Shown here piece by piece: positions 5,164 to 61,658 of a DNA stretch of 64,000 nt. The notes under the pieces were generated by a model. The model worked only from the letters and a program-made list of their open reading frames with translations, was not told the DNA's origin and did no database searches. Position 1 is the stretch's first letter. Each line of letters opens with the position of its first letter. The position numbers were made by a program, and so were the translations under genes. Source of the DNA: Phycisphaerae bacterium (GTDB lineage Bacteria; Planctomycetota; Phycisphaerae; Sedimentisphaerales; Anaerobacaceae); contig JAUXAB010000001.1 of assembly GCA_030615025.1 (NCBI GenBank), forward strand, positions 1 through 64,000, given 5' to 3'.

Positions 5164-5228
5164 CTACTCGATGCTCGATGCTGGATTCTCGATACCCGAC
5201 GAGCATGGAGAATCGGGAATCAAGGATC
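5164..5228. repeat. CTCGATGC/GGATTCTCGAT fold-back repeat
   Basis: The left arm iterates CTCGATGCTCGATGCTGG and the right arm reads back as GAGCATGGAGAATCGGG, so the unit can fold on itself. The same word family occurs before rhaB (10809-10839) and before the MotE-like gene (41555-41623). Confidence 0.6.
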
Positions 5229-5436: not shown

Positions 5437-5508
5437 TTGGTTAAATGGTAATTGGTTAAATGGTAATTGGTAAATGGTTAAATAGTTACCAATCACCAAT
5501 CACCAATA
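5437..5508. repeat. TAATTGGT fold-back repeat, copy 1
   Basis: The left arm iterates TTAAATGGTAATTGG. The right arm iterates its complement (ACCAATCACC). The centre AAATAGTTACCA is identical to the copy at 22267-22348. Further copies lie at 26050-26120, 47263-47351 and 55640-55751. Confidence 0.75.
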
Positions 5509-10608: not shown

Positions 10609-10808
10609 CTGCCGGCCGTCCCTGGTCGCAAAATCCGTATTCGCATTGCGTATTGTCGTATAATTTTCCCAAATCAATTGGATTTTGTCCAGAAGTCTTG
10701 CTGCTGCACAAAGGTAGTTTCCATACCCACAAACATAATGGGCACGCCTTTATACTTCGATTTTCGATTTGCAATAACAAAGAATTTGGGTTATAAAATC
10801 GTTTCCTT

Positions 10809-10839
10809 GCTCGATACTTGATACTCGATGCTCGATATT
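10809..10839. repeat. CTCGATACTTGATA repeat before rhaB
   Basis: CTCGATACTTGATACTCGAT followed by GCTCGATATT belongs to the same word family as 5164-5228 and 41555-41623. It ends about 15 bases before the rhaB ribosome-binding site AAGGA. Confidence 0.55.
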
Positions 10840-16808: not shown

Positions 16809-18077
16809 ATGAGTGATTCGAAAGGGATTGAAAGAGCATACGAGTCAGCGCGGCAGCGTTACGCTGAGCTTGGCGTCGACACCGACAAGGCGATAGAACG
16901 GCTGGGCAAGATAGCAATATCGCTGCACTGCTGGCAGGGAGATGACGTGGGCGGGTTTGAAAGCAGCGTCAGTACCCTCAGCGGTGGAGGCCTGGTGGCC
17001 ACTGGTGCCTATCCCGGCAGGGCACGAAGCGCCTGCGAGCTGCGAGCGGATATGGAAAAGGCGATGAGTCTAATACCGGGCAAGCACCGGCTGAACCTGC
17101 ACGCAATGTACGCGGAAACGGGCGGCAAAGTAGACCGTAACGAGCTGACAGCGGAGCATTTTGCGGCCTGGATTGATTGGGCGAAAGCAAAAGGCCTGGG
17201 GATGGATTTTAACGGGACATTTTTTTCGCATCCGAAGGCCGAAAGCGGTTTCACGCTGGCCAGTGCCGATGAAGGTGAACGCCGCTTCTGGGTGGAGCAC
17301 GGGATTGCGTGCCGGAAGATCAGCGAGCAGATTGGGCGGCAGCTCGGAAGTGCGTGTGTGACAAACGTGTGGATTCCGGATGGGTACAAGGACATTCCTG
17401 TGGACCGCAAAGGTCCTCGACAGCGGCTTAGAAAATCGCTCGATGAGATATTCGCCGAAAAGATAGACCGCAGGTGGCTTTTAGATTCTGTTGAAAGCAA
17501 ACTCTTCGGCATCGGCTCGGAAAGCTATGTTGTCGGCTCGCATGAGTTTTATCTGGGTTATGCCGTCCAAAATAACATTTTACTTTGTCTGGACACGGGA
17601 CATTTTCATCCGACGGAGGAAATTTGCGATAAGATATCATCGGTAATGGCGTTTCTTGATGAGATACTGCTTCATGTCAGCAGGGGTGTCCGCTGGGACA
17701 GTGACCATGTAGTTATCCTCTCGGACGAGCTGCGCGGCCTCGCCGAAGAGATAGTGCGGGGCGATTACCTTGAAAGGGTGCATATCGGGCTCGATTTTTT
17801 TGACGCCAGTATTAACCGGGTGGCGGCCTGGGTGATAGGCAGCCGCTGTATGCTCAAGGCCCTCTTGATTGCGCTGCTGGAGCCGACGGACAAGCTGCGT
17901 GAGTTCGAGCATAGCGGTGACTTTACCTCGCGGCTGGCGATACTGGAGGAGCTAAAGACGCTGCCCTTCGGGGCGGTGTGGGATTATGACTGCAGCAAAA
18001 TGGAAGTTCCGGCAGGTGACGCCTGGCTCAAGGAGATAAAAGATTATGAAGCCCGGGTGACCAGTAAACGTAATTGA
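16809..18077 (+). CDS. rhaA: L-rhamnose isomerase RhaA
   Basis: This cytosolic metal-dependent isomerase converts L-rhamnose to L-rhamnulose, the substrate of the RhaB encoded upstream. The 422-residue length matches the family. Recognisable stretches are [15 protein letters not shown] near the N-terminus, [55 protein letters not shown] and [19 protein letters not shown] precedes the ATG at about 11 bases. The gene follows the GH172 lipoprotein by 62 bases and precedes the permease by 38, consistent with one operon. Confidence 0.95.
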
Positions 18078-18098
18078 TGATTGACAATTGACAATAGA
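18074..18098. repeat. TTGATGATTGACAATTGAC repeat before permease
   Basis: A short copy of the ATTGATTATTGATAATTG family overlaps the rhaA stop and ends a few bases before the AAAGGA ribosome-binding site of the permease gene. Confidence 0.45.
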
Positions 18099-19900: not shown

Positions 19901-22018
19901 ATGAATGAGGCTCTGGCGGATTTGATAAGAATATCGAATGTGATGGGGAAAGATTCCACCCTTGTTCAGGGTGGGGGCGGCAATACATCGGTGAAAAGTG
20001 CAGATGGTAAATATATGTATATCAAGGCCAGCGGTACGGCCCTGAAAGATATGACAACGAAAAAGGGCTGGCGAAGGTTACGGCTCGATTCGGTTCTGTC
20101 GATTATAAAAGATAAGTCAATAGTACGGCTTGACGCGCAGGCCAGGGAGATTGAGGTGGTGAATCGACTGCTTCTTGCGTGCGATGACGAGGTTACCAGC
20201 GGTGCCCGGCCATCGGTGGAATCACATTTGCACGCTTTTCTCGATAGGTGCGTGATTCATCTGCATCCTATTGCGGTGGGCGCATATGTAAATGCCAAAA
20301 ACGGGAAAGCAAAACTTGGGAAGCTTTTTAAGGGGACGGCCCCCCCCAAGCGCTTGTCCCAAGGGGGACGCCCCTTGGCGGGGACATCAAAAAGCCTGCC
20401 GTCACTTTGGGTGCCATACACAGATCCCGGCTTTACGCTTGCAAAGAGAATAGAGAAGCTGGTTGTACATTATGAGAACCGGTTCGGCAAAAAGCCGGCA
20501 ATTCTTTTCCTTCAAAAGCACGGGCTTTTCATCAGCGCCGATACCGCCGACGCTGCGTTACGGCTGGTTCGTAAGATAATTAAGCTTTGCAGCAGTAAGT
20601 TAAAAAAGCCCAAGGCCCACAAGCCCAAAACCCTTGTTTACGAGGACATCGTTGCTGCCAAATTAGCGATTCGCAAGGCGGTTTTCGATGCCACCGGCCA
20701 ATACTTACCGGTAGACTACTTTTTGACCACTGAGCCTCTGGCGGCATTTATGCGGCGTAAGGATGCGGCAAAGCTGCTGGCGACACCTGCGATGAATCCG
20801 GACGAGCTGGTGTACGCCAATGGCTCAGCGATTTGGCTGGGGCCCCGCAAACGCAAAAAAAACGGGGTCAGGAAACCCCTGGAAAACTGTAACGTCAATA
20901 CAATCACGCGGAAACTAAGGGCCCTGGTCAATAAAGGCCAGAAACCAGCCGCGGCATTTCTGGTCAAGGGTATGGGCCTCTTTGTGGCGGCTCCGAAAAA
21001 AGCCGCGCCCGTTATCGCCGAAATTACGCTCTGCTCGCTTCTTGTCCGCACTTACGCGGCGAAATTCGGCGGCGTACTCGCCCTGACGAAACGCGAGCAG
21101 GATTTCATTAACAACTGGGAAGCGGAAGCGTTTCGCAAGAAATTGGCGAGCGGGGACAGGGAAGGTGAGCTGAAAAATCGTATTGCCGTCGTTACAGGTG
21201 CCGGCAGCGGTTTGGGCAGAAGTATCGCGATTTCTCTGGCAAGGGCAGGCGCAATGGTTGGGCTTGCGGATATTGATACCGAAGCGGCAGAGGAGACTGC
21301 TGCGCTTATTAAAGGGGACTCCGGTGAAGAATGCGCCACAGGCGAACAAGCTGAAGTAATAGCGGTGCAGTGCAATGTCACCAGCGAAGCCAGTATTAGA
21401 AGGGGATTCAAGGCGGTGCTCGGCAATTGGGGTGGGCTTGATATTCTGGTCAATGCGGCGGGCCCCGTTAGAGACCCAACGGGAAAAGTCTCTAACGGTG
21501 CGGGCGTGGCTCCGGCATATCCACTCGTCGATATGCCCGTGGACAAGTGGCGTCTCGCTCTGGAAGTGAATCTGACCGGATATTTTCTTGTGGCAAAAGA
21601 GGCCGCGAGAATTATGATTCAGCAGGGAATGGGGGGCAGTATCATAAATATCAGCTCTAAATCAGGCCTCGAAGCGAGCAGGAACAATACTGCGTATAAT
21701 GCGACAAAGGCCGGCGAAATTCACATGGCCCGCGGCTGGGCACTCGAACTGGGCGAATACGGGATAAGGGTTAATTGCCTCGCTCCGGGCGATGTATTTG
21801 AGGGCCCAAGAATCTGGAATCCGGAATACATAAAGGTCTGTGCCAAAAAATACGGCATAAAACCTGAGGAAGTTATCCCTTACTATGTGAGCAAAACCGC
21901 TCTAAACCGCGAAATAACAGGGCACGACATCGCCGATTCCGTTGTCTTTTTATGTTCTGACAGAGCCCGGACCATCACGGGCCAAACGCTCGCCCCATTA
22001 GAAATTTTTCCTTTCTGA
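19901..22018 (+). CDS. rhaEW: Bifunctional rhamnulose-1-phosphate aldolase / lactaldehyde dehydrogenase
   Basis: A fusion of two enzymes (705 residues from the ATG at 19901, GGAG upstream). The N-terminal class II aldolase domain (about 1-415) cleaves rhamnulose-1-phosphate to DHAP and L-lactaldehyde. Zinc ligands are suggested by ESHLHAFLDRCVIHLHPIA and LQKHGLF. The C-terminal short-chain dehydrogenase (about 425-705) has VVTGAGSGLGRS (NAD site), NAAG, ISSKSG and the YNATK catalytic pair, and is expected to oxidise lactaldehyde to lactate. The same architecture is known for RhaEW of Bacillus. Two palindromic repeats are read in frame: at 20331-20386 in the aldolase part and at 21465-21498 just after NAAG. 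Confidence 0.93.
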   Translation: MNEALADLIRISNVMGKDSTLVQGGGGNTSVKSADGKYMYIKASGTALKDMTTKKGWRRLRLDSVLSIIKDKSIVRLDAQAREIEVVNRLLLACDDEVTSGARPSVESHLHAFLDRCVIHLHPIAVGAYVNAKNGKAKLGKLFKGTAPPKRLSQGGRPLAGTSKSLPSLWVPYTDPGFTLAKRIEKLVVHYENRFGKKPAILFLQKHGLFISADTADAALRLVRKIIKLCSSKLKKPKAHKPKTLVYEDIVAAKLAIRKAVFDATGQYLPVDYFLTTEPLAAFMRRKDAAKLLATPAMNPDELVYANGSAIWLGPRKRKKNGVRKPLENCNVNTITRKLRALVNKGQKPAAAFLVKGMGLFVAAPKKAAPVIAEITLCSLLVRTYAAKFGGVLALTKREQDFINNWEAEAFRKKLASGDREGELKNRIAVVTGAGSGLGRSIAISLARAGAMVGLADIDTEAAEETAALIKGDSGEECATGEQAEVIAVQCNVTSEASIRRGFKAVLGNWGGLDILVNAAGPVRDPTGKVSNGAGVAPAYPLVDMPVDKWRLALEVNLTGYFLVAKEAARIMIQQGMGGSIINISSKSGLEASRNNTAYNATKAGEIHMARGWALELGEYGIRVNCLAPGDVFEGPRIWNPEYIKVCAKKYGIKPEEVIPYYVSKTALNREITGHDIADSVVFLCSDRARTITGQTLAPLEIFPF
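20331..20386. repeat. In-frame GTCCCAAGGGGGAC repeat
   Basis: The segment contains the 14-base core GTCCCAAGGGGGAC (20356-20369) and a CCCCTTGG arm that can pair with TGTCCCAAGG. The same core occurs, in opposite orientation and another reading frame, in flgH at 60520-60533. It encodes the non-conserved stretch around APPKRLSQGGRPLAG of the aldolase domain. Confidence 0.7.
21465..21498. repeat. In-frame CCGTTAGAGAC inverted repeat
   Basis: CCGTTAGAGAC and GTCTCTAACGG are perfect 11-bp arms around a 12-base loop. The 34 bases are read in frame within the dehydrogenase domain as PVRDPTGKVSNG. TCTAACGG words also occur at 22050 and 51140. Confidence 0.8.
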
Positions 22019-22361
22019 TTGTATTGCCTGCTCCTATTGGAGAATTTCTAACGGGGCTCATTGCCGATTCCGGACAGGTAATGGTTCGGTAAGGGTTCAT
22101 GGCTCGTTTTCAAGACACAAGACCCTGGACGCAGGACCCCGTTTCACAAAAAGATGGCGAAATAGGAGCCCACTCAAGACTTTGGTCCTGGGTCTGCAGT
22201 CTTCTGGGCACGATTCACGACACGTTTTCGGTTGCTTTTCCAGGGCGAAATGTGCTATATTGCTGCACTGGTAACTGGTAACTGGTAATTGGTCAAATGG
22301 TAATTGGTTAAATAGTTACCAGTTACCACTCACCAATTACGAATTACAGGAGATTTGAAGT
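22019..22361. other. Intergenic repeats before E1 gene, no gene
   Basis: The gap contains a CTAACGGGGC remnant near 22050. Paired GACCCTGGACGCAGGACCC and GGTCCTGGGTCTGCAG segments lie at about 22123-22205. A large TAATTGGT fold-back lies at 22267-22348 and ends directly before the GGAG ribosome-binding site. A 60-codon open frame at 22099-22281 has no ribosome-binding site. Confidence 0.5.
22267..22348. repeat. TAATTGGT fold-back repeat, copy 2
   Basis: The left arm iterates TGGTAACTGGTAACTGGTAA, the centre is AAATAGTTACCA, and the right arm iterates ACCAGTTACCACTCACC. It ends two bases before the ribosome-binding site of the E1 gene. Confidence 0.8.
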
Positions 22362-24602
22362 ATGGATTTTTGCATTGAGGACACGCGAAAGAAACCGGTT
22401 CCGAAGTTAAACGAACTTATAAAAGACGGCATTATCACTCTCGACAACGCAACTGACTGGCTCAGGAGCATTTACGAGATTCGGTTCTTCGAGGAGAAGG
22501 TTTTTGAGCTTTTGGGCCAGAATATTATCAAAGGTGCCTCACACCTCTACGCCGGCGAGGAGGCCGTCGCCGTTGGCGCCATCGCCGCTATTGAGCGTGG
22601 CGATGTCATCGGCTCGACCCACCGCGGCCACGGTCACTGCGGGGCTATCGGCAACAAATACGCTGACACTGAGCGGGACCGCCAGAACCACTGGAACCAG
22701 ATGATGGCTGAGCTGATGGGCAAGGAGACCGGCTACTGTAAGGGGCGGGGCGGCTCGATGCACATAGCCGAAGTAGATAAGCAAAACAACCTCGGCTCAA
22801 CCGGCATCGTTGGCGGCAATCAGCCCTCGGCAGTCGGAGCAGCTTTAGCAGAGAAATACAAAAAAACAGGCAAAGTCGTGCTTTCATTCTTCGGCGACGG
22901 TTCGACCAATTGCGGCAGTTTTCACGAGTCGATGAATATGGCATCGACCTTGAAAGTGCCTTTAGTGGCGATAATCGAAAATAACCTATATGGAATGAGC
23001 GTGCCGTTCTCCGGCTCGCCTGTCGAGGGCACGAGAAAAGCCAGTAACATCGAGGATATTGCGCAAAGGGCGGCTGCCTATGACGTGCCGGCTATGATTG
23101 TGGACGGCCAGGATGCGGCTGCCGTCTTTCTTGCGGTCCGCTCCGCAGTCGAAAGGGCCAGAAAGAAAAGTCAGATGACCATTATCGAGGCCAAGACCTA
23201 TCGCTGGTACGGCCATAGCAGAAGCGACCCGCGTGCCTACCGCACAAAGGCCGAGGAGAAGGCCTGGCACGATCGCGACCCCATTATCGTCCTGAGCGAA
23301 AAACTGCTCAGCGAGAAGCTTGCCACACAGCAGCAGCTGGACGAGATTAAGGACAAGGCCTTTGCGACAATCGAGACGGCCACAAAGTTCGGTCTGGACA
23401 GTCCCTGGCCAAACACCGCCGATTTAGCCAAAGATGTATATGTCGAGGAAAGTTACCCGGCTTCGCTTATCGAGTCCGAAAGAGCCACCTCTGCAAAGGT
23501 AATGGAAGCAACCGCTGTCTTCGAAGCTGCTCTTGCTTCATCTACCAGCAAAACCAAGAAAGAGGCCACCGAGCGAGCCAGAGCAGTCGTGAAGTCGAAG
23601 TTCGGTATGGATGTTATGACCATCGGCCAGGCGGTCTCTGCCGCACAGGCTGATGAGCTGAGAAGAGATAATAACGTTATTGTGATGGGTGAAGACGTCG
23701 GCCTCTACGGCGGGGCGTATCAGGCAACTCGCGGACTGTCGGCCGAATTCGGTACCGACAGAGTCATTGATACCGCGATATCCGAAGCGGCCATCGCAGG
23801 TGGCGCGGTTGGTGCCGCTCTTCGAGGGCTAAGGCCGGTCGCCGAGATTATGTATGTCGATTTTGTTACGATAGCGATGGACCAGCTCGTTCACGTCGGC
23901 GCCTACAACCGCTATATGTTCGGCGGCAAGGCCAAGGTCCCGATGGTGCTGCGGACCGAAGGTGGCGTCGGCAGATGTATCGCCGCTCACCATTCAGAAT
24001 CGCTCGAAGCGTGGCTTATGCATCCCCCAGGGCTGTATGTGGTAATGCCGTCGACGCCGTATGATGCAAAAGGTCTGCTCAAGGCCGCTATACGCAGCGA
24101 CAACCCGGTGGTCTTTATCGAGCACAAGGCGACCTACGGCCAGCTCGGTCCGGTTCCGGAAGGCGATTATATCATTCCGCTCGGTGTGGCGGATATCAAA
24201 AGGCCCGGCAAAGATGCGACCATCGTTAGCTACAGCAGGATGGCGATGTTCTCGCTGGAGGCGGCCAAAGTGCTGGCCGAGCAGCACGGCATCGACGCCG
24301 AGGTAATCGACGTGCGAACGCTGAAGCCGCTGGACATAAAAACAATAGCTGAATCTGTTCGTAAGACCGGCCGACTCATAACCGTCAGCGAGGGCTTCGG
24401 CACCTGCGGTGCCGGCAGGGAGTTCGCCGGACAATTTATGGAATACGAGTTTGGCGACGGCAGCCACGGCTTTGATTATCTCGATGCGGCACCGGTAAAT
24501 CTGGCAGCAGCCGATGTGCCTCCGCCGATGAGTGAGCCGTTAGAGACAGCCAGTATTCCAAGCGTAGAGAAAATTGTCGAAGCTGTTAAAGCAATTGTGT
24601 AA
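22362..24602 (+). CDS. Fused alpha/beta E1 of a 2-oxoacid dehydrogenase (pyruvate/acetoin type)
   Basis: The 746-residue thiamine-diphosphate enzyme joins the E1 alpha and beta chains, which are usually separate. The alpha part (about 1-375) has STHRGHGH, GRGGSMHI and the ThDP motif GDGSTNCGSFHES with ENNLYGMS. After a linker (about 380-420), the beta part has MGEDVGLYGGAYQATRG, DTAISEAAIAGGAVGAA, VDFVTIAMDQLVHV, HHSESLEAWLMHPPG and the C-terminal VIDVRTLKPLD and SEGFGTCGAG. It decarboxylates a 2-oxoacid, probably pyruvate, and passes the acyl group to the E2 encoded next. Its position among rhamnose and fucose genes suggests that it drains pyruvate from deoxysugar breakdown. Confidence 0.92.
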   Translation: MDFCIEDTRKKPVPKLNELIKDGIITLDNATDWLRSIYEIRFFEEKVFELLGQNIIKGASHLYAGEEAVAVGAIAAIERGDVIGSTHRGHGHCGAIGNKYADTERDRQNHWNQMMAELMGKETGYCKGRGGSMHIAEVDKQNNLGSTGIVGGNQPSAVGAALAEKYKKTGKVVLSFFGDGSTNCGSFHESMNMASTLKVPLVAIIENNLYGMSVPFSGSPVEGTRKASNIEDIAQRAAAYDVPAMIVDGQDAAAVFLAVRSAVERARKKSQMTIIEAKTYRWYGHSRSDPRAYRTKAEEKAWHDRDPIIVLSEKLLSEKLATQQQLDEIKDKAFATIETATKFGLDSPWPNTADLAKDVYVEESYPASLIESERATSAKVMEATAVFEAALASSTSKTKKEATERARAVVKSKFGMDVMTIGQAVSAAQADELRRDNNVIVMGEDVGLYGGAYQATRGLSAEFGTDRVIDTAISEAAIAGGAVGAALRGLRPVAEIMYVDFVTIAMDQLVHVGAYNRYMFGGKAKVPMVLRTEGGVGRCIAAHHSESLEAWLMHPPGLYVVMPSTPYDAKGLLKAAIRSDNPVVFIEHKATYGQLGPVPEGDYIIPLGVADIKRPGKDATIVSYSRMAMFSLEAAKVLAEQHGIDAEVIDVRTLKPLDIKTIAESVRKTGRLITVSEGFGTCGAGREFAGQFMEYEFGDGSHGFDYLDAAPVNLAAADVPPPMSEPLETASIPSVEKIVEAVKAIV

Positions 24603-24605
24603 CTA

Positions 24606-24772
24606 ACGTAAAATACGAAATCCGAAGCACGAAGCACGAAACAATACCAAAATTCGAATGTCCAAATGACCAAAACGTTTGGAATGCCTGCCTTCGCAGG
24701 CACAAGTTTTGAATTTCTGTCATTTGGATTTGTTTCGGATTTCGATATTCGAATTTCGAATTTATTTCTCAC
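24606..24772. repeat. ACGAAATCCGAAGCACGAA fold-back repeat
   Basis: The left arm iterates CGAAATCCGAAGCACGAAGC, then ATTCGAATGTCCAAATGACC. A hairpin, GCCTGCCTTCGCAGGC, marks the centre. The right arm reads back as GTCATTTGGATTTG and TCGGATTTCGATATTCG. Related copies occur at 37850-37915 and inside flgA at 61558-61634. Confidence 0.75.
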
Positions 24773-24821: not shown

Positions 24822-26063
24822 ATGGCAAGAGAAGTCAGACTACCGCAGCTTGGCCAGACGATGGAAGAAGGAACAATCGTTAATTGTATGGTCAAGGTCG
24901 GTGACGAGGTGAAAAAGGGCGATGTGATTTTTGAGATAGAGACGGACAAGGCAACCCTCGAGATGGAATCGCCCGCTGATGGTTTTGTAAAATATATTCT
25001 CGCTGAGACCGACCAGACACTGCCCGTTGGCGCACCGCTTCTGGTACTTGGTGACAAGGACGAAGAAGTACCGCAAAGCTTTGTCGACTCGCTGAAGGCT
25101 GCTGCACCTGCTGCAGCGGCTGCCGAAGCTGCACCGGCGACCACCACCGCTGAGCCAGTCGAGCCAGAGACGCCCGCAAAAGTCGAAGCCAAGCCGGCCG
25201 AGAGAGTAAAGGCCTCACCGCGGGCAAAGAAATTGGCTGAGCAGCTCGGCGTGGACCTGGCAGCAGTTACCGGCACAGGACCTGCCGGCAGAATTACCGA
25301 GCAGGATGTAAAAAATGCTGCTGCTTCGCAGCCCGCCAAACCAGCCGCAGCCCCAGTGCCCGAACCAGGCCTCAAACCTGGAGCAAAATTGCCACTCAAC
25401 AGGATTCAGAAGATAACCGGGCAAAAAATGCTGCAGTCAAAACGCGAGATACCCTGCTTTTATCTAAGTGTAAAGACTGATGTTACCGACCTGGTTGAAT
25501 TGCGGGCCAAATTGAACAAGACCAGCGACATCAAGGTCGCCTACAATGACTTTATTATTCGAGCGGTTGCAATCGGGCTGGAGAAATTCCCGATTATGAC
25601 GGGTCAGCTGGCCGGTGATACTATCGAGCTGGCAAAATCAATCGGTATTGGGCTGGCGATTTCTGTGCCGGGCGGCCTGGTTGCACCAATTGTCAAGGAC
25701 GTGAACAAAAAAGATGTCAGGCAGATTGCACGTGACAGTAAGACACTGGTTGAGAAGGCCCGCAGCAATAAACTGGCTCCCACAGATTTGGAGGGCGGCT
25801 GTATCACGGTAACTAACCTTGGTGCCTTTGAGATAGAATCCTTTATCCCAATAGTTGTGCCCGGCCAGTGCAGCATCCTGGGCATCGGCCAGATAACCAA
25901 GACCTGCGTGCCTGAGGATGGCAGCATTATGGTTCGCAAGCTGATGAGTATGATCCTTTCGGTGGACCACAAAGTCACCAACGGTGCATACGCAGCCCAG
26001 TTCCTGGACTTTGTAAGAAAGCTGCTCGAAGATGCGTCCACGTTTAGTGTTGGTGATTGGTAA
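24822..26063 (+). CDS. Dihydrolipoamide acyltransferase (E2)
   Basis: The 413-residue core subunit starts with a lipoyl domain (1-77; the lipoylated lysine lies in EIETDKATLEME). An Ala/Pro-rich linker follows, then a peripheral-subunit-binding domain (about 128-165, ASPRAKKLAEQLGVDLAAVTGTGPAGRI). The catalytic domain runs from about 185 to the end. It transfers the acyl group from E1 to CoA. The catalytic motif, usually HxxxDG, reads HKVTNG (His383), so Asp is replaced by Asn. The last four residues (VGDW) and the stop come from a TAATTGGT repeat that overlaps the gene end. AAGGA precedes the start. The E3 partner is elsewhere. Confidence 0.93.
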   Translation: MAREVRLPQLGQTMEEGTIVNCMVKVGDEVKKGDVIFEIETDKATLEMESPADGFVKYILAETDQTLPVGAPLLVLGDKDEEVPQSFVDSLKAAAPAAAAAEAAPATTTAEPVEPETPAKVEAKPAERVKASPRAKKLAEQLGVDLAAVTGTGPAGRITEQDVKNAAASQPAKPAAAPVPEPGLKPGAKLPLNRIQKITGQKMLQSKREIPCFYLSVKTDVTDLVELRAKLNKTSDIKVAYNDFIIRAVAIGLEKFPIMTGQLAGDTIELAKSIGIGLAISVPGGLVAPIVKDVNKKDVRQIARDSKTLVEKARSNKLAPTDLEGGCITVTNLGAFEIESFIPIVVPGQCSILGIGQITKTCVPEDGSIMVRKLMSMILSVDHKVTNGAYAAQFLDFVRKLLEDASTFSVGDW

Positions 26064-26120
26064 TTGGTGATTGGTAATTCAACTTACCATTTAACCAGTT
26101 ACCATTTAACCAATTACCAG
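26050..26120. repeat. TAATTGGT fold-back repeat, copy 3
   Basis: Left arm TGGTGATTGGTAATTGGTGA, right arm ACCATTTAACCAGTTACC. It begins inside the last codons of the E2 gene and ends at the AAAGGAG ribosome-binding site of fucI. Confidence 0.8.
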
Positions 26121-27860: not shown

Positions 27861-27990
27861 GGCGAGGGACGAGAGACGAGCGACGAGAGGCGAGGGACGA
27901 AAGACGAGAGACGAGCGACGAGAGGCGAGGGACGAGAGACGAGGGACGAAAGACGAGAGACGAGGGACGGGAGACGAGGGACGAGGACAA
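27861..27990. repeat. GACGAGGGACGAGAGACGAG tandem array
   Basis: More than a dozen 7-8 bp units alternate between ACGAGGG, ACGAGAG and ACGAAAG after the fucI stop. The same words appear, inverted, in the 3' end of the TPR-glycosyltransferase gene at 52472-52517. The array leaves an open frame by chance because its unit lacks stop codons. Confidence 0.8.
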
Positions 27991-28423: not shown

Positions 28424-28437
28424 CTGAGCTCCTAATT

Positions 28438-28507
28438 TCACTTTTAGACGGGATTAACAGGATTTTCTATCATTTATTCTTCTATCCTGTAAATCCTGTC
28501 TGAAAGA
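28438..28507. repeat. CTTTTAGACGGGATTAACAGG fold-back repeat, copy 1
   Basis: Left arm CTTTTAGACGGGATTAACAG and right arm ATCCTGTAAATCCTGTCTG are imperfect inverted copies around TTTATTCTTCTA. A near-identical copy lies at 59829-59897 and a partial one around 48640-48705. Both full copies end right before the ribosome-binding site of a minus-strand gene. Confidence 0.8.
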
Positions 28508-28512
28508 TGCAC

Positions 28513-35212: not shown

Positions 35213-35545
35213 ATGATTAACCTAAATGGCAATGTAAGTGGGGCCCAAAACGCAATGAAGGGCGGTTGGGAGCCCAGCTCGCTGATGCCAAAGGCGGATA
35301 ATGCCAATGCCAAGAAGTTAGACTTTGATAATACCGTTAAGGCTATCGAGAAATACATATCCAAGGTCGATGAACTTCAACAGTCATCAGATATGTCCAT
35401 AAAGGATTTATTGGCCGGCAAAAATGAGGATATTATCTCGGTGGTCTCAGCGGTGGCTAAAGCTGACATGAGTTTCAAGCTTCTTGTGGGCGTTAGAAAT
35501 AAATTAATCGAAGCCTACAAGCAAACTATGAATATGCCACTGTGA
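35213..35545 (+). CDS. fliE: Flagellar hook-basal body protein FliE
   Basis: This 110-residue protein connects the MS ring with the rod and is among the first exported substrates. The C-terminal two thirds match the family: FDNTVKAIEKYISKVDELQQ, SIKDLLAGK, and ISVVSAVAKADMSFKLLVGVRNKLIEAYKQTMNMPL (read in pieces). GGGGAG lies before the ATG, 15 bases after flgC. The stop codon lies at the start of a TTGATTATTGAT repeat. Confidence 0.93.
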   Translation: MINLNGNVSGAQNAMKGGWEPSSLMPKADNANAKKLDFDNTVKAIEKYISKVDELQQSSDMSIKDLLAGKNEDIISVVSAVAKADMSFKLLVGVRNKLIEAYKQTMNMPL

Positions 35546-35618
35546 TTGATGATTGATTATTGATAATTGATTATTGTAAAAGACATTAAGAATAATCAAT
35601 AGAAAATAGTCAATAACC
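35544..35618. repeat. TTGATTATTGATAATTGA fold-back repeat
   Basis: The left arm iterates TGATGATTGATTATTGAT. The right arm reads back as AATAATCAATAG and AGTCAATAACC. It fills the fliE-fliF junction and ends at the AAAGG ribosome-binding site of fliF. Related copies occur at 18074, 46110-46235 and 58645-58677. Confidence 0.75.
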
Positions 35619-35629
35619 AAAGGCCTTTA

Positions 35630-37895: not shown

Positions 37896-38020
37896 CCAAA
37901 ATACAAATGACCAAAACAGGTGTCATTGCGAGGCCTGCGAAGTCCGCCTGTGGCGGGCGGCAATCTCAACCGTTAGGTTTTGAGATTGCTTCGTCGCTGC
38001 GCTCCTCGCAATGACATGTT
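37850..38020. repeat. Composite repeat block between fliG1 and fliG2
   Basis: The first part (37850-37915) is the CACGAAATTCGAAGCACGAA family, continuing with AATACGAATGACC words. The second (37920-38020) has GTCATTGCGAGG and its inverse CCTCGCAATGAC as outer ends, GCAATCTCA/TGAGATTGC as inner arms, and a GTCCGCC-TGTGG-CGGGCGG hairpin on the left side. The second part ends about 35 bases before the GTG of fliG2. Confidence 0.8.
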
Positions 38021-41533: not shown

Positions 41534-41623
41534 CCCGCCAAAGGCGGGTTAAATCCTCGATGGTGGATCCTCGATGCTCGTCGAGAAGCGAGTATCGAGT
41601 ATCAAGTATCGAGTATCGAGTAT
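41534..41623. repeat. GCCCGCC hairpin and CGAGTATCGAGT fold-back repeat
   Basis: A GCCCGCC-AAA-GGCGGG hairpin (41534-41548) is followed by CCTCGATGCTCG on the left and an iterated CGAGTATCGAGTATC run on the right. The run stops at the TAGGAG ribosome-binding site of the MotE-like gene. Confidence 0.75.
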
Positions 41624-43130: not shown

Positions 43131-43825
43131 TGAGGAAAAGCCAGCCGGAATCCGATGATGCTCCAGGTGCACCGGTATGGATGGTCACTTTCAGTGATTG
43201 TATGACGCTGCTGTTGACGTTCTTTGTGCTTCTTTTGAGTTTTTCATCCTTCGATGAGGAAATCTTTCGGCAATTAAAGGCCGTTTTCGCCGATGCTCTG
43301 CCTGCGGTCGCTCCGGAGGCCAAAAAGGATACAGATGCATTTTTATCTACGAAGCAAATCCAGGAAACAGTGCAGTTGGACGAAGGTAGCGAGAAACCTA
43401 CTTTAGATAAAGGAACTGAAGAGAGGACAAAAGAAGATACAGAGCCTGTGGATTTCCACCGTCGCAAGGTATTCTTAATCGAATCTAAAAGAATTTTTTG
43501 GGGTAAAGGCACAGCTATTTCCTCTGAAGGTCGCGGTATTATGTCTATCATGGCGTCATTCTTAAAAGAGATGCCCAACCGGATAGTCATCAGCGAAAAC
43601 AGGCCGGGCGACAACGGGGGCGGTGAACAGTTTTCTCTGACGCGGGCATGGGCGGTGTTGAAGTATTTTGCAACAGAGCAAAACCTTGACAAGAGACGGT
43701 TCAGCATCTCAGCGGCAAGCACTCTTGTCCCGCACCAATTGAGCCCAGGCTCACCCCTAATTGGTGCGGGAGAACCTGAACGGATGCTTGAGATAGTTTT
43801 ATTAGAACGGAGTATTTACAATTGA
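43130..43825 (+). CDS. MotB-like stator protein, first copy
   Basis: A stator B subunit of 231 residues with one membrane segment. The proton-binding aspartate is Asp23 in VTFSDCMTLLLTFFVLLLS. The periplasmic domain is a divergent OmpA-like peptidoglycan-binding domain (ISSEGRGIMSIMASFLKEMP, SLTRAWAVLKYFA). The usual GHTD motif is replaced by SENRPGD. Near the end, a 44-bp palindrome inserts VPHQLSPGSPLIGAGE just before the last strand, where NRRVEI is expected and ERMLEIVLL is found. It overlaps motA by 1 base and motB2 by 4 bases, so expression is tightly coupled. Confidence 0.87.
   Translation: MRKSQPESDDAPGAPVWMVTFSDCMTLLLTFFVLLLSFSSFDEEIFRQLKAVFADALPAVAPEAKKDTDAFLSTKQIQETVQLDEGSEKPTLDKGTEERTKEDTEPVDFHRRKVFLIESKRIFWGKGTAISSEGRGIMSIMASFLKEMPNRIVISENRPGDNGGGEQFSLTRAWAVLKYFATEQNLDKRRFSISAASTLVPHQLSPGSPLIGAGEPERMLEIVLLERSIYN
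43728..43771. repeat. 44-bp palindromic element, copy 3, inside motB1
   Basis: TCCCGCACCAATT and AATTGGTGCGGGA are perfect 13-bp inverted ends around 18 bases that hold GAGCC-CA-GGCTC. The length is the same as that of the intergenic copies at 29001 and 32019. Read in frame. Confidence 0.9.
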
Positions 43826-45266: not shown

Positions 45267-46112
45267 ATGGCTGGTAAGCTTATTAGAATATCCTTCTTGT
45301 TGTTTGTTGTTTTGTCACCGGGCCGTTTCTCCTTTGGCAAAGATGTTATTAAGTTCCCTCAAGTACCGATGCCGACACTGCCGGGCAATACCGCCACAGA
45401 AAGTGTGCCTGTAGCCGGGGTCCCAAGCATCAGCGATTTGATGACACTTATAGATAAGGCAACCGCCAACGAGGCTAAAGACAAAGATTGGTCGACACCT
45501 GTCAAACTTGTAATCATTTTTACCGGCCTGGCGATTTTGCCAAGTCTTCTGGTGATGATGACATCGTTTACGAGAATAGTTATTGTTTTGGCCTTTGTTC
45601 GTCGCGCTTTGACCACACAAACCATACCGCCTACTATTGCTATTATAGGTCTGGCCTTGTTTCTGACGCTGTATACAATGGCTCCCACATTTGCCAGGGT
45701 CAACACGAGCTCAATTCAGCCCTATCTTGCAGACCAGATTGATTTTCAGACTGCGGGAGCCAGGGCCGGCCATTGTATCAAGGAATTTATGCTTCGGCAG
45801 AGCCGAGAATCTGATTTGGCTCTTTTTGTGCAGATGGCCAAAATAGAGCCTCCTGCCACTCCAATGGATATCGGCATGCATATAGTAATCCCGGCATTTA
45901 TTATCAGCGAATTTCGCACCGCATTTGAGATAGGCTGCCTCTTGTTTATTCCTTTTTTGTTGATAGATATAGTTATCGCAAGCGTTTTGCTCAGTGCGGG
46001 TATGATGCTGCTGCCGCCTATGATGATTTCGCTACCTTTCAAGCTGATGCTATTCATTCTTGTTGACGGGTGGGGGCTGCTGGCGAAGAGTCTTACCTTG
46101 GGTTTCAAATAA
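45267..46112 (+). CDS. fliP: Flagellar export gate protein FliP
   Basis: The inner-membrane export gate subunit has 281 residues. It has a cleavable signal peptide (about 1-24), then membrane segments with LVIIFTGLAILPSLLVMMTSFTRIVIVL (in parts), the family motif TSFTRIVIVLAFVRRALTTQ, LALFLTLYTMAPTF, FIISEFRTAFEIGCLLFIPFL and SAGMMLLPPMMISLPFKLMLF. Length and motifs are normal. GAGGG precedes the ATG, one base after fliO. Confidence 0.95.
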   Translation: MAGKLIRISFLLFVVLSPGRFSFGKDVIKFPQVPMPTLPGNTATESVPVAGVPSISDLMTLIDKATANEAKDKDWSTPVKLVIIFTGLAILPSLLVMMTSFTRIVIVLAFVRRALTTQTIPPTIAIIGLALFLTLYTMAPTFARVNTSSIQPYLADQIDFQTAGARAGHCIKEFMLRQSRESDLALFVQMAKIEPPATPMDIGMHIVIPAFIISEFRTAFEIGCLLFIPFLLIDIVIASVLLSAGMMLLPPMMISLPFKLMLFILVDGWGLLAKSLTLGFK

Positions 46113-46235
46113 TTGACTATTGAATATTGACTATTGATTATTGAAAAACAGAAGACAGACAGAGGCGCGAAGGTAAGTGCGCGGTAAGACTATGGACAAC
46201 GGACGCAATAGTAAATAGTAAATTGAAAATTGAAA
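46110..46235. repeat. TTGACTATTGAATATTGA repeats around the fliP-fliQ junction
   Basis: AATTGACTATTGAATATTGA words follow the fliP stop, and AGTAAATTGAAAATTGAAA words run up to the fliQ ATG. Between them (about 46150-46205) is unexplained sequence. No ribosome-binding site remains before fliQ. Confidence 0.6.
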
Positions 46236-46505
46236 ATGGATAGTAGTTTCGTTCTTTACCTGGGCCGGCACACTCTCGAGACGGCTTTGTTTTTAGCTGC
46301 CCCGATTCTGGTGACCTGCATAGTGGTTGGGGTGGTGGTGACACTACTGCAGGCAGTTACTTCCATACGCGATATGACTTTAACGATAGTCCCCAAGCTC
46401 CTGGCTGTTGGTATCGTCACACTGATGTGTGGCGGCTGGATGCTTCAGCTGATACTTAGATTTGCAAACGAAATTTTTGGCCATATCCAGAATATTGGGC
46501 ACTGA
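46236..46505 (+). CDS. fliQ: Flagellar export gate protein FliQ
   Basis: An export gate subunit of 89 residues with two membrane helices: LETALFLAAPILVTCIVVGVVVTLLQAVTSIRDMTL (in parts) and VPKLLAVGIVTLMCGGWMLQLIL. The TLLQAVTSIRDMTL stretch is the FliQ signature. The ATG at 46236 is immediately preceded by a TTGAAAATTGAAA repeat and has no recognisable Shine-Dalgarno site, which is unusual in this operon. It starts 123 bases after fliP, and fliR follows after 3 bases. Confidence 0.93.
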   Translation: MDSSFVLYLGRHTLETALFLAAPILVTCIVVGVVVTLLQAVTSIRDMTLTIVPKLLAVGIVTLMCGGWMLQLILRFANEIFGHIQNIGH

Positions 46506-47262: not shown

Positions 47263-47351
47263 TGGTAACTGGTAATTGGTGATTGGTGATTGGTAACTGG
47301 TGATTATTTAACCAATAACCAATAACCAATTACCGTTTACCAATAACCAAA
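47263..47351. repeat. TAATTGGT fold-back repeat, copy 4
   Basis: Left arm TGGTAACTGGTAATTGGTGA, right arm ACCAATAACCAATAACC, together filling the fliR-flhB junction. It ends at the GATAGAGG ribosome-binding region of flhB. Confidence 0.8.
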
Positions 47352-55629: not shown

Positions 55630-55639
55630 TAAAACCTCA

Positions 55640-55751
55640 TTGGTTATTGGTGATTGGTAATTGGTTACCATTTACCATTTACCAGTTACCATTTACCAGT
55701 TACCAGTTACCATTTACCAGTTACCAGTTACCATTTACCAGTTACCATTTA
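55640..55751. repeat. TAATTGGT fold-back repeat, copy 5 (largest)
   Basis: ATTGGTTATTGGTGATTGG is followed by at least nine ACCATTTACCAGTTACC-type units over 112 bases, filling the flgK-flgL junction. On the minus strand it ends at the GAGG ribosome-binding site of flgL. Confidence 0.8.
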
Positions 55752-58644: not shown

Positions 58645-58677
58645 TAATTGATTATTGATTATTGATTATTGATTATT
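58645..58677. repeat. ATTGATTATTGATTATTG repeat before flgJ
   Basis: Four TTGATTA units directly abut the start codon of the flgJ-like gene on the minus strand. Same family as 35544-35618 and 46110-46235. Confidence 0.65.
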
Positions 58678-59815: not shown

Positions 59816-59828
59816 CTGAACTCCTTTT

Positions 59829-59897
59829 TTCACTTTTAGACGGGATTAACAGGATTTTCTATGATTTATTCTTCTATCCTATAAATCCTGTCTAAAA
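59829..59897. repeat. CTTTTAGACGGGATTAACAGG fold-back repeat, copy 2
   Basis: Nearly identical to 28438-28507 across about 65 bases. It overlaps the flgH stop codon on one side and ends at the AAGGAG of flgI on the other, matching the arrangement before the CBS gene. Confidence 0.85.
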
Positions 59898-60566: not shown

Positions 60567-61658
60567 TTAGAAAACCGGTTCCACGGTCCCGTCTTCATTG
60601 ACCCTGGCTAAGATTATTCGTTGTGAGTCCAGGTTTCGCACCTTTATATATTCACCAGCTCGCCCATCCTGCATAGCTTTTCCGATAGCCGTAACCAGAA
60701 ACAGCGGTCTTTCAATTCGAATAACAACATTCTTATTTCGCCCGACAATAACTGCAGGCTTGACGGGGCCCAACATATGCGGCCCAAGCACGGTCTTTGC
60801 CGGCAGCCGGCGTTTGGCGATAAGACCATAGGGTGGCCTCCAATTGGCAGGCTCCGGATGGCTTGATATGGCGCTTTCTATCTTGACATTCTCAGAGCTG
60901 ATAATCGCACCTGCAGGAATGTCAACCAGCGTCACTGCTCGGTGACAATTGTATTTTAAGCGGAAAGTTACTTCACACTCCCCTATCTGTTTGCCGTTCT
61001 GTATCACAACAATCTGGACCTTAGTCTGGTTTCTTGCGATGCTTTTGACCAAACGTGGGGACAATTTTATATCTTTGCTTTTTCCAGGTACGGCCAAATC
61101 CTTCGGTATCCGTATCGGGTCCCATTGGCAAACCGAACCAGTCCGCCATTGGCGGAGATTTTTTTTCAGGAACGCGCTTGCCAGCTCAACGAATTCGCTG
61201 CCTTTGATAATTTTCTGCTGCCGTTTTACCGTTATTTTTTCCGCACCGGTTAATGTCACTTTTGATGCCGGGATTCCGTTGCAGGCCAATCTGCTCAGGA
61301 CCATTGACCTGTCGATGACGATTTCCTGGCCCGGCACTGAAATCCGACCCAAGGTAATTTTGCTTGCTTTGGCTGCAAGTCCGTCTTCACGCGGATTGCC
61401 CCGGATTATGCTGACTTCACCCAGGCTAATAGTATCGTCTTTGATTGTGACCTCTCTCGGCAGGTAGAGCTGTAGAGTAGAATCCTTCTGTAAGTCGTTG
61501 GCTTCGGTATTCGCCCCGTTAGCTGATGCCCGGCAAAAAAGTACACAGGTCATACAAAGAATAATGAATATCGAACAAGGAATTTCGAAGTTCGTCATTC
61601 GATATTCGATATTCGATATTCGATATTCGATTGCTCTTGTGCTCTTTCTTCTGCTCAT
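60567..61658 (-). CDS. flgA: Flagellar P-ring assembly protein FlgA
   Basis: A periplasmic chaperone (363 residues) needed for FlgI ring formation. The C-terminal SAF-type domain shows VTLVDIPAGAIISSENVKIE, AKRRLPAKTVLGPHMLG, VVIRIERPLFLVTAIGKAMQDGRAGEYIKVRN (in parts) and RIILARVNEDGTVEPVF. The N-terminal 45 residues are odd. IEYRISNIEYRMTNFEIP is encoded by an ATTCGATATTCGATATTCG repeat and runs into the signal-peptide core IFIILCMTCVLFC. AAGGAA precedes the ATG at 61658, so the repeat is translated. It lies between flgG and flgH. Confidence 0.9.
   Translation of the reverse strand: MSRRKSTRAIEYRISNIEYRMTNFEIPCSIFIILCMTCVLFCRASANGANTEANDLQKDSTLQLYLPREVTIKDDTISLGEVSIIRGNPREDGLAAKASKITLGRISVPGQEIVIDRSMVLSRLACNGIPASKVTLTGAEKITVKRQQKIIKGSEFVELASAFLKKNLRQWRTGSVCQWDPIRIPKDLAVPGKSKDIKLSPRLVKSIARNQTKVQIVVIQNGKQIGECEVTFRLKYNCHRAVTLVDIPAGAIISSENVKIESAISSHPEPANWRPPYGLIAKRRLPAKTVLGPHMLGPVKPAVIVGRNKNVVIRIERPLFLVTAIGKAMQDGRAGEYIKVRNLDSQRIILARVNEDGTVEPVF
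61558..61634. repeat. ATTCGATATTCGATATTCG fold-back repeat inside flgA
   Basis: GAATATCGAACAAGGAATTT and its inverse iterated as TTCGATATTCGATATTCG form a fold-back that encodes the flgA N-terminus. The family also occurs at 24606-24772 and 37850-37915. Confidence 0.8.

Follow-up and report, generated by a model that had tools for sequence, protein, structure and literature searches.

Among the closest described counterparts of the repeats reported here are the TAACTGA heptamers, which form direct repeats in marine Beggiatoaceae, cyanobacteria and Bacteroidetes (PMC4679880). They resemble the present elements in their 7-nt unit, in lying in intergenic DNA, often just upstream of start codons, in their patchy occurrence over lineages and in having target genes of no functional class (PMC4679880). 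TAACTGA repeats consist of one dominant word in 169 direct sets and one indirect set, mostly without a Shine-Dalgarno (SD) site (PMC4679880), whereas here we find more than 100 word classes, fold-backs with a nearly fixed arm order, retained SD sites and use of the stop-codon side of gaps as well. In Xanthomonas and Nostoc, the GGGAATC and GGGGAYT repeats (PMC4692102) are likewise dispersed heptamers with variable positions, over-represented in non-coding DNA, and their sites are conserved among relatives while their length varies (PMC4692102). Their words are G-rich and G-quadruplex-forming (PMC4692102), whereas those studied here are mostly A+T-rich, fall into many families and have complementary arms. 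Compared with heptameric SSRs, the elements share the 7-nt unit and the over-representation outside coding sequence; the pattern of one or few words per genome in direct arrays was not found, the words falling into 145 classes and the arms being complementary.

Dispersed palindromes offer further comparisons. Rickettsia palindromic elements (RPEs) are also dispersed and also occur in frame in protein genes (review, PMC10969869); they are ~150 bp long with a conserved family sequence (PMC10969869), and, set against that description, the elements here are shorter, are built of tandem heptamers and occur within genes only in a stop-free family. REP/BIME elements and MITEs are likewise short palindromes of intergenic DNA that are present in many copies and differ strongly among related genomes (PMC3733652, PMC10969869). 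Internal tandem heptamers are not described for them (PMC3733652, PMC10969869) and, unlike those classes, the present elements showed neither a transposase link nor a target-site duplication. Heptamer arrays and in-frame dispersed palindromes are thus already known; of many-word heptamer fold-backs we found no description in a literature search whose coverage of subscription journals was thin.

The window analysed, a stretch of 64,000 nt, comprises positions 1-64000 of contig C128 in a Sedimentisphaerales MAG of 3.92 Mb and 132 contigs; the best matches to its proteins come from Sedimentisphaerales/Phycisphaerae MAGs. Together with further stretches of the same genome it forms a sample of ~1.09 Mb (~28% of the genome), in which our own simple gene caller placed 890 genes with 85% coding sequence. 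Densities are approximate because the sample was taken partly from contigs chosen for the TGGT word; the periodicity and within-gap tests are independent of that choice. Stretches from four other genomes (G026, G022, G023 and G018) were also picked partly for TGGT matches. On contig C3 (L092, 21860-21980) the contig end falls within a TGGT array, so array lengths in the assembly may be underestimates. The elements of the window and their immediate surroundings are as follows.

22267-22347, plus strand: TGGT (TAAYTGG) fold-back, located in the leader that precedes the fused PDH E1 gene and directly touching the SD AGGAG.
22232-22261, plus strand: promoter-like TTGCTT, 18 nt, TATATT, upstream of that fold-back and apparently kept in relatives, judging from an alignment by eye.
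22348-22364, plus strand: translation start of the PDH E1 gene, with the SD AGGAG at 22348-22352 and the start codon at 22362-22364.
5437-5507, no strand: TGGT fold-back in a 534-nt divergent gap, start codon ~100 nt away.
26050-26119, plus strand: TGGT fold-back that provides the stop codon of PDH E2 and ends beside the SD of the next gene.
47263-47350, plus strand: TGGT fold-back filling the gap before flhB, where G004 has other sequence.
55639-55751, minus strand: TGGT fold-back preceding a minus-strand gene, its arms unequal (28 and 84 nt).
18072-18095, plus strand: one-armed TTGA heptamers spanning the rhaA stop codon.
35543-35620, plus strand: TTGA fold-back filling the gap before fliF, beginning at the upstream stop codon.
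46112-46237, plus strand: TTGA arm at a stop codon (46112-46145) and a second heptamer arm (46207-46237).
58647-58677, minus strand: perfect ATTGATT heptamers; a minus-strand start codon with no obvious SD lies 6 nt away.
10808-10837, plus strand: heptamers of the CTCGAT family in a single arm that overlaps the called start codon.
41553-41623, plus strand: CTCGAT fold-back that runs up to an SD; the corresponding junction in G003 holds a heptamer element of TTGA type.
5167-5193, no strand: CTCGAT heptamers in a divergent gap.
24606-24768, no strand: compound CGAA/ATTCGAA fold-back between PDH E1 and E2, where G003 and G004 have a gap of 35 nt.
28436-28509, minus strand: CAGGATT fold-back with words of 8-9 nt, one of 19 matches in the genome.
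59828-59897, minus strand: second CAGGATT fold-back, 96% identical to the 28436 copy (70-nt pair).
61559-61631, minus strand: TATCGAA fold-back within what is called as the 5' part of a gene on the minus strand.
27863-27986, plus strand: one-armed array of GACGA heptamers and 14-mers at the end of a lipoamide dehydrogenase-like gene.

The words named by an earlier sequence-only reading of the window were present at every place it gave, and Tandem Repeats Finder calls most of them, with periods of 7, 14 or 21. Fold-backs of iterated words occur far beyond chance (40 elements, and 1 when the sequence was shuffled locally by dinucleotides), heptamer clusters number 170 observed and 6 shuffled, and TGGT words top the list of over-represented intergenic 8-mers in the genome's own sample. 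To measure the period, exact 6-mer self-matches were counted by distance in intergenic, shuffled and coding DNA. In the 1.09-Mb sample, intergenic self-matches at lag 7 amount to 63.5 per 10 kb, against 3.2 in shuffled DNA, a ~20-fold excess, and 4.3 in coding DNA, which is near background. Multiples of 7 also spike, up to 42; lags 5, 6, 12 and 13 lie at about background, and lags 8-11 are raised but far less than 7, with words of 8-11 nt also present in the sample. Matches at lag 7 occur in 159 of the 662 gaps and represent 145 word classes. Among tandem runs containing 10 or more self-matches, 64 have period 7, and none has period 4, 5, 6 or 13. The TGGT (TAAYTGG), TTGA (TTGAYTA), CTCGAT (CTCGATR), CGAA-type and GACGA-type families all have 7-nt units; CAGGATT, with words of 8-9 nt, is the exception among the families listed. 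The proposed word length of 7-10 bp therefore does not hold for most families, in which the period is 7, and, from the period-7 spike and the Tandem Repeats Finder periods, families described as unrelated in sequence share a unit length, CAGGATT apart.

In a typical element, heptamers form the left arm and complementary heptamers the right, with a short centre in between. Which arm comes first is nearly fixed, at 26:0 for TGGT, 10:0 for CTCGAT and 7:0 for TTGA among decided cases; a wider word list gives 26:1 for TGGT here and 55:5 when all genomes are counted. Reverse complementation preserves arm order, so the order belongs to the element and not to the direction of the gene. The two-armed architecture proposed from the sequence holds for many elements and is not general, since the TGGT clusters of the sample divide into 26 two-armed and 14 one-armed, and the elements at 10809 and 18074 are one-armed. 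Arms range from 7 to 160 nt, and their lengths within an element show no positive correlation (rho -0.31); matched arm lengths, considered as a sign of selected stems, were thus not seen. Word order is partly mirrored between the arms (mean z -0.94, s.e. 0.29, 16 elements). Some centres are not heptameric and recur at dispersed places: the 18-nt centre TGGTATATTCGAATAACC has six copies in this genome, on six contigs, is absent from the 40 relatives searched, and has one copy in G026, a genome outside those 40.

The window also holds repeats of other kinds. A palindrome of the form CCCCATTAGAAA...TTTCTAACGGGG (21992-22056), with 52 half-sites in the 1.09-Mb sample, lies inside the 3' end of an aldolase/SDR gene ending at 22018, and the displaced C-terminal codons (IADSGQVMVR) come after it. 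Eleven 81-nt tandem repeats (1713-2609) encode an NCTFSGNSA-like motif in an 838-aa ORF. A ~100-nt palindrome, GTCATTGCGAGG...CTCGCAATGAC (37915-38016), has words that are enriched in the intergenic DNA of the sample, with similar sequence in other gaps, and similar copies of an inverted repeat, CCCGCACCAATT...AATTGGTGCGGGA (43725-43774), occur at a different gap in G003.

Heptamer elements also occur inside genes, in a family-dependent way that matches the stop codons in the words. CTCGAT words are stop-free in all frames on both strands; TTGA words contain stop codons on both strands and TGGT words on one. Accordingly, of these three families only CTCGAT has clusters within called genes (7 of 19 heptad clusters, against 0 of 43 for TGGT and TTGA together, p=1e-4). 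A looser word-count test for a purge of stop-containing words from genes was borderline (p=0.056), because chance words in genes are counted too. The RPE-like trait of palindromes in frame within genes is thus displayed by the CTCGAT family alone, and two sites were checked against orthologs. In a phosphatidylserine decarboxylase-like gene and a glutamate synthase small subunit-like gene (both named by sequence resemblance), the protein is longer than its orthologs by 18 and 14 aa, respectively. At both sites, DNA alignment with orthologs shows that the element replaces ~15-30 ancestral nt in a variable loop, and the encoded peptides SSIEYRES and SILDARYSILD are the heptamer read in frame.

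The sequence-only reading had also held that nearly all elements stop within a few bases of an SD site. This is so for those at 22267, 26050, 28438, 35544, 41555, 47263, 55640 and 59829, which end at or close to an SD or start codon, and overstated for the rest: the element at 5437 lies ~100 nt from the start codon, that at 24606 ~40 nt from the SD, that at 46110 sits at the upstream stop codon, that at 10809 overlaps the start, and that at 58645 has no obvious SD. At five places (18074, 26050, 35544, 46110 and 47263) the element begins level with the upstream stop codon or within it, and so lies as close to the stop as to the SD; those at 26050 and 35543 contain that stop codon. We compared the 137 elements in the 970 co-directional gaps of five heptamer-rich genomes with a null in which each element was put at random in its own gap. 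Elements ending 8-25 nt before a start codon numbered 35 of 137 (23.6 expected, p=0.002), and those beginning no more than 10 nt from the upstream stop codon 47 of 137 (31.7 expected, p<0.001). Where the gap had at least 80 nt to spare, 21 of 82 elements fell in the stop-side decile and 11 of 82 in the start-side decile. The positional bias is therefore real, but two-sided, with the stop side at least as strong as the SD side.

Elements are about as frequent in convergent gaps, where there is no start codon, as in co-directional ones, an outcome that the sequence-only reading had itself named as refuting it. Occupancy per 100 gaps is 11.0 in convergent, 13.2 in co-directional and 17.4 in divergent gaps, and the per-base density is similar in convergent and co-directional gaps (8.0 and 8.9 per 10 kb). 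The TAACTGA-type arrangement, immediately upstream of the start with the SD largely replaced, was not found either, as the location is two-sided and the SD is kept at 22348. Positioning specific to ribosome-binding sites is ruled out as the main signal by the stop-side bias and the occupancy of convergent gaps.

The junction around 22267 was compared with those of relatives. The downstream gene (22362-24602) encodes a 746-aa protein in which PDH E1 alpha and beta are fused, an arrangement common to relatives across the order and found in some other phyla. In the leader, a promoter-like TTGC...TGCTATATT is kept across relatives. Between the expected transcription start and the SD, this genome has a TGGT fold-back, L014, L021 and L043 have a fold-back of GCGTAT-type heptamers, and most others have ordinary sequence. 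RNA folding predicts a strong hairpin in this genome's own leader (shuffle z -3.3 in one comparison and -5.0 in another), and the PDH leaders of most relatives have no significant hairpin, which rules out a conserved leader hairpin swapped for heptamers. The whole window gave no Rfam covariance match at gathering score. Between PDH E1 and E2 the gap is 219 nt here against 27-35 nt in several relatives, and in other relatives it holds ACG-type heptamers in variable number.

Over 78 comparisons of orthologous gaps, elements were present in both genomes in 11, in this genome only in 11, in the other only in 5 and in neither in 51 (p=1.7e-4). Some shared junctions hold the same inherited element, and at others the family differs (C128:41496, C38:74331, C4:9434). 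Congeners mostly have no element at the orthologous junctions, and other genera sometimes have an unrelated heptamer family. The fliF ortholog of one congener (L153, G003:C71:9378-10886) has one internal TAG.

The families are distributed unevenly. The TAATTGGT pattern has 56 matches here against 0-2 in the congeners G001-G004, so this family either spread recently here or was lost in the congeners; the CAGGATT element has 19 matches here, 14 in G008 and 0-1 in congeners. A strict TGGT fold-back pattern was found in no other of 392 genomes drawn, of which none but our own belonged to the same family. The 7-nt spike is strong in this genome (G000), G003, G026, G022 and G018, and absent or weak in G001, G004 and G012. 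In G023 (L201-L205) the leading intergenic period is 8 (52 per 10 kb at lag 8, 36 at lag 16), with words such as TAATTGGT. Twenty short samples, of which four represent the same family and the others the wider phylum, showed little heptamer signal and mostly no spike. Heptamer fold-backs of different words (TGAATTA, GTGAATA, GGCTGAA) occur in an Acidobacteria MAG (L075, 239-295 and 10931-11002) and a Methylomirabilota MAG (L058, 11967-12025). With the uneven spread among the genomes sampled, this indicates a phenomenon that is patchy and wider than the phylum.

We favour, at slightly better than an even chance for the reading as a whole, dispersed palindromes of 7-nt words that spread by copying, are resized in 7-nt steps, undergo template switching between arms and are confined by selection; as part of that joint reading, the spreading repeats would be selfish or mutationally driven DNA and not regulators at ribosome-binding sites. 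A short heptamer stretch or a whole fold-back would be copied to a new site and replace some resident sequence, probably through template switching at microhomologies or ectopic copying out of an array already present; such replacement is what we see at the two coding sites. The arms would then lengthen or shorten separately, in ~7-nt steps, by replication slippage, as their independent lengths and the 7-nt periodicity suggest. Intrastrand template switching between the arms may maintain their rough complementarity, a step to which the partly mirrored word order points. Template switching between inverted arms and slippage are both documented elsewhere (PMC8604942, PMC8794818), and an origin by polymerase slippage has been proposed for the heptamer excess in work cited in PMC4692102. 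Selection would halt the arrays at coding sequence on one side and at the SD or promoter on the other, so that they appear to abut ribosome-binding sites, and would tolerate in-frame stop-free words within genes but not stop-containing ones. Slippage alone leaves the choice of 7, rather than 5 or 6, unexplained; the copying and the 7-nt ruler are both inferred. We identified no copying enzyme, no donor-recipient pair and no target-site duplication, which weighs against this reading, as do the excess of elements just before the SD and the borderline word-count test.

Elements of MITE or REP/RAYT type with heptamer arms, mobilised by a transposase, would equally be palindromic, dispersed and lineage-specific in copy number; Y1_Tnp genes are present, and another palindrome of the window, at 21992-22056, resembles a recent insertion into a gene. 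Y1_Tnp genes and heptamers are mismatched, however, with G022 rich in heptamers without Y1_Tnp and G001 and G004 carrying Y1_Tnp without heptamers; its presence does not track heptamer abundance, which speaks against Y1 transposase as the mover. The coding sites, of which few (two) could be resolved, are replacements and not clean insertions, the arm lengths seem too variable for fixed terminal repeats, and a search of the sample (~28% of the genome) for opposite arms set far apart, within 6 kb, yielded none and no long two-armed parent with cargo. We consider this origin unlikely. Somewhat less likely still is the proposal of the sequence-only reading that the fold-backs act as mRNA hairpins beside the SD, controlling translation or protecting the mRNA. 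The strong predicted hairpin at 22267 (z -3.3), the excess of elements 8-25 nt before start codons, the unrelated heptamer fold-backs in the PDH leader of other species and the correlated junction occupancy between genomes agree with it, and re-use of junctions by different families above expectation could also mean a local function. Taken together, the two-sided bias, the use of convergent gaps, the in-frame copies within genes and the scarcity of significant hairpins in PDH leaders leave a function in mRNA stability or translation tied to the ribosome-binding site unsupported, and the unmatched arm lengths and the lack of an Rfam match also speak against it. The alternative offered with it, a targeting mechanism, survives only in the loose sense of seeding at gene edges and re-use of junctions.

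A purely local origin, in which 7-nt slippage acts in place on a chance seed without dispersal, would account for the ACG-type words between PDH E1 and E2, which run from single words to long arrays in many species, and for cyanobacteria, indels of 7 nt have been reported at repeats of a similar kind (PMC4679880). We regard it as very unlikely, as shared non-heptamer centres, a near-fixed arm order at dozens of unrelated loci and the 96% identical 70-nt CAGGATT pair require copying or common descent. Least probable to us is a dedicated machine with a 7-nt step that writes words at gene edges: the sharp period, the 145 word classes and the heptamers of other words in the Acidobacteria and Methylomirabilota MAGs fit it, but there is no candidate gene, G023 is dominated by period 8 and words of 8-11 nt also exist. 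The related conjecture of a 7-nt-ruler enzyme, whether polymerase, reverse transcriptase or repair enzyme, that writes words and their complement in several phyla with a lineage-specific vocabulary is one we hold doubtful, about as improbable as the mRNA hairpins.

An excess of heptamers in bacteria has been noted in the literature, where its cause is not established. This genome follows a 7-nt rule over more than 100 unrelated words, in fold-backs of near-fixed order and in numbers far above those of its congeners; since the rule spans so many words and empty sites are available for comparison, the cause of the 7-nt step becomes testable. The elements also caution against assuming a role in translation for every repeat that touches a ribosome-binding site, and an odd repeat peptide in a protein loop, such as one resembling SIEYRES, can be repeat DNA read in frame.
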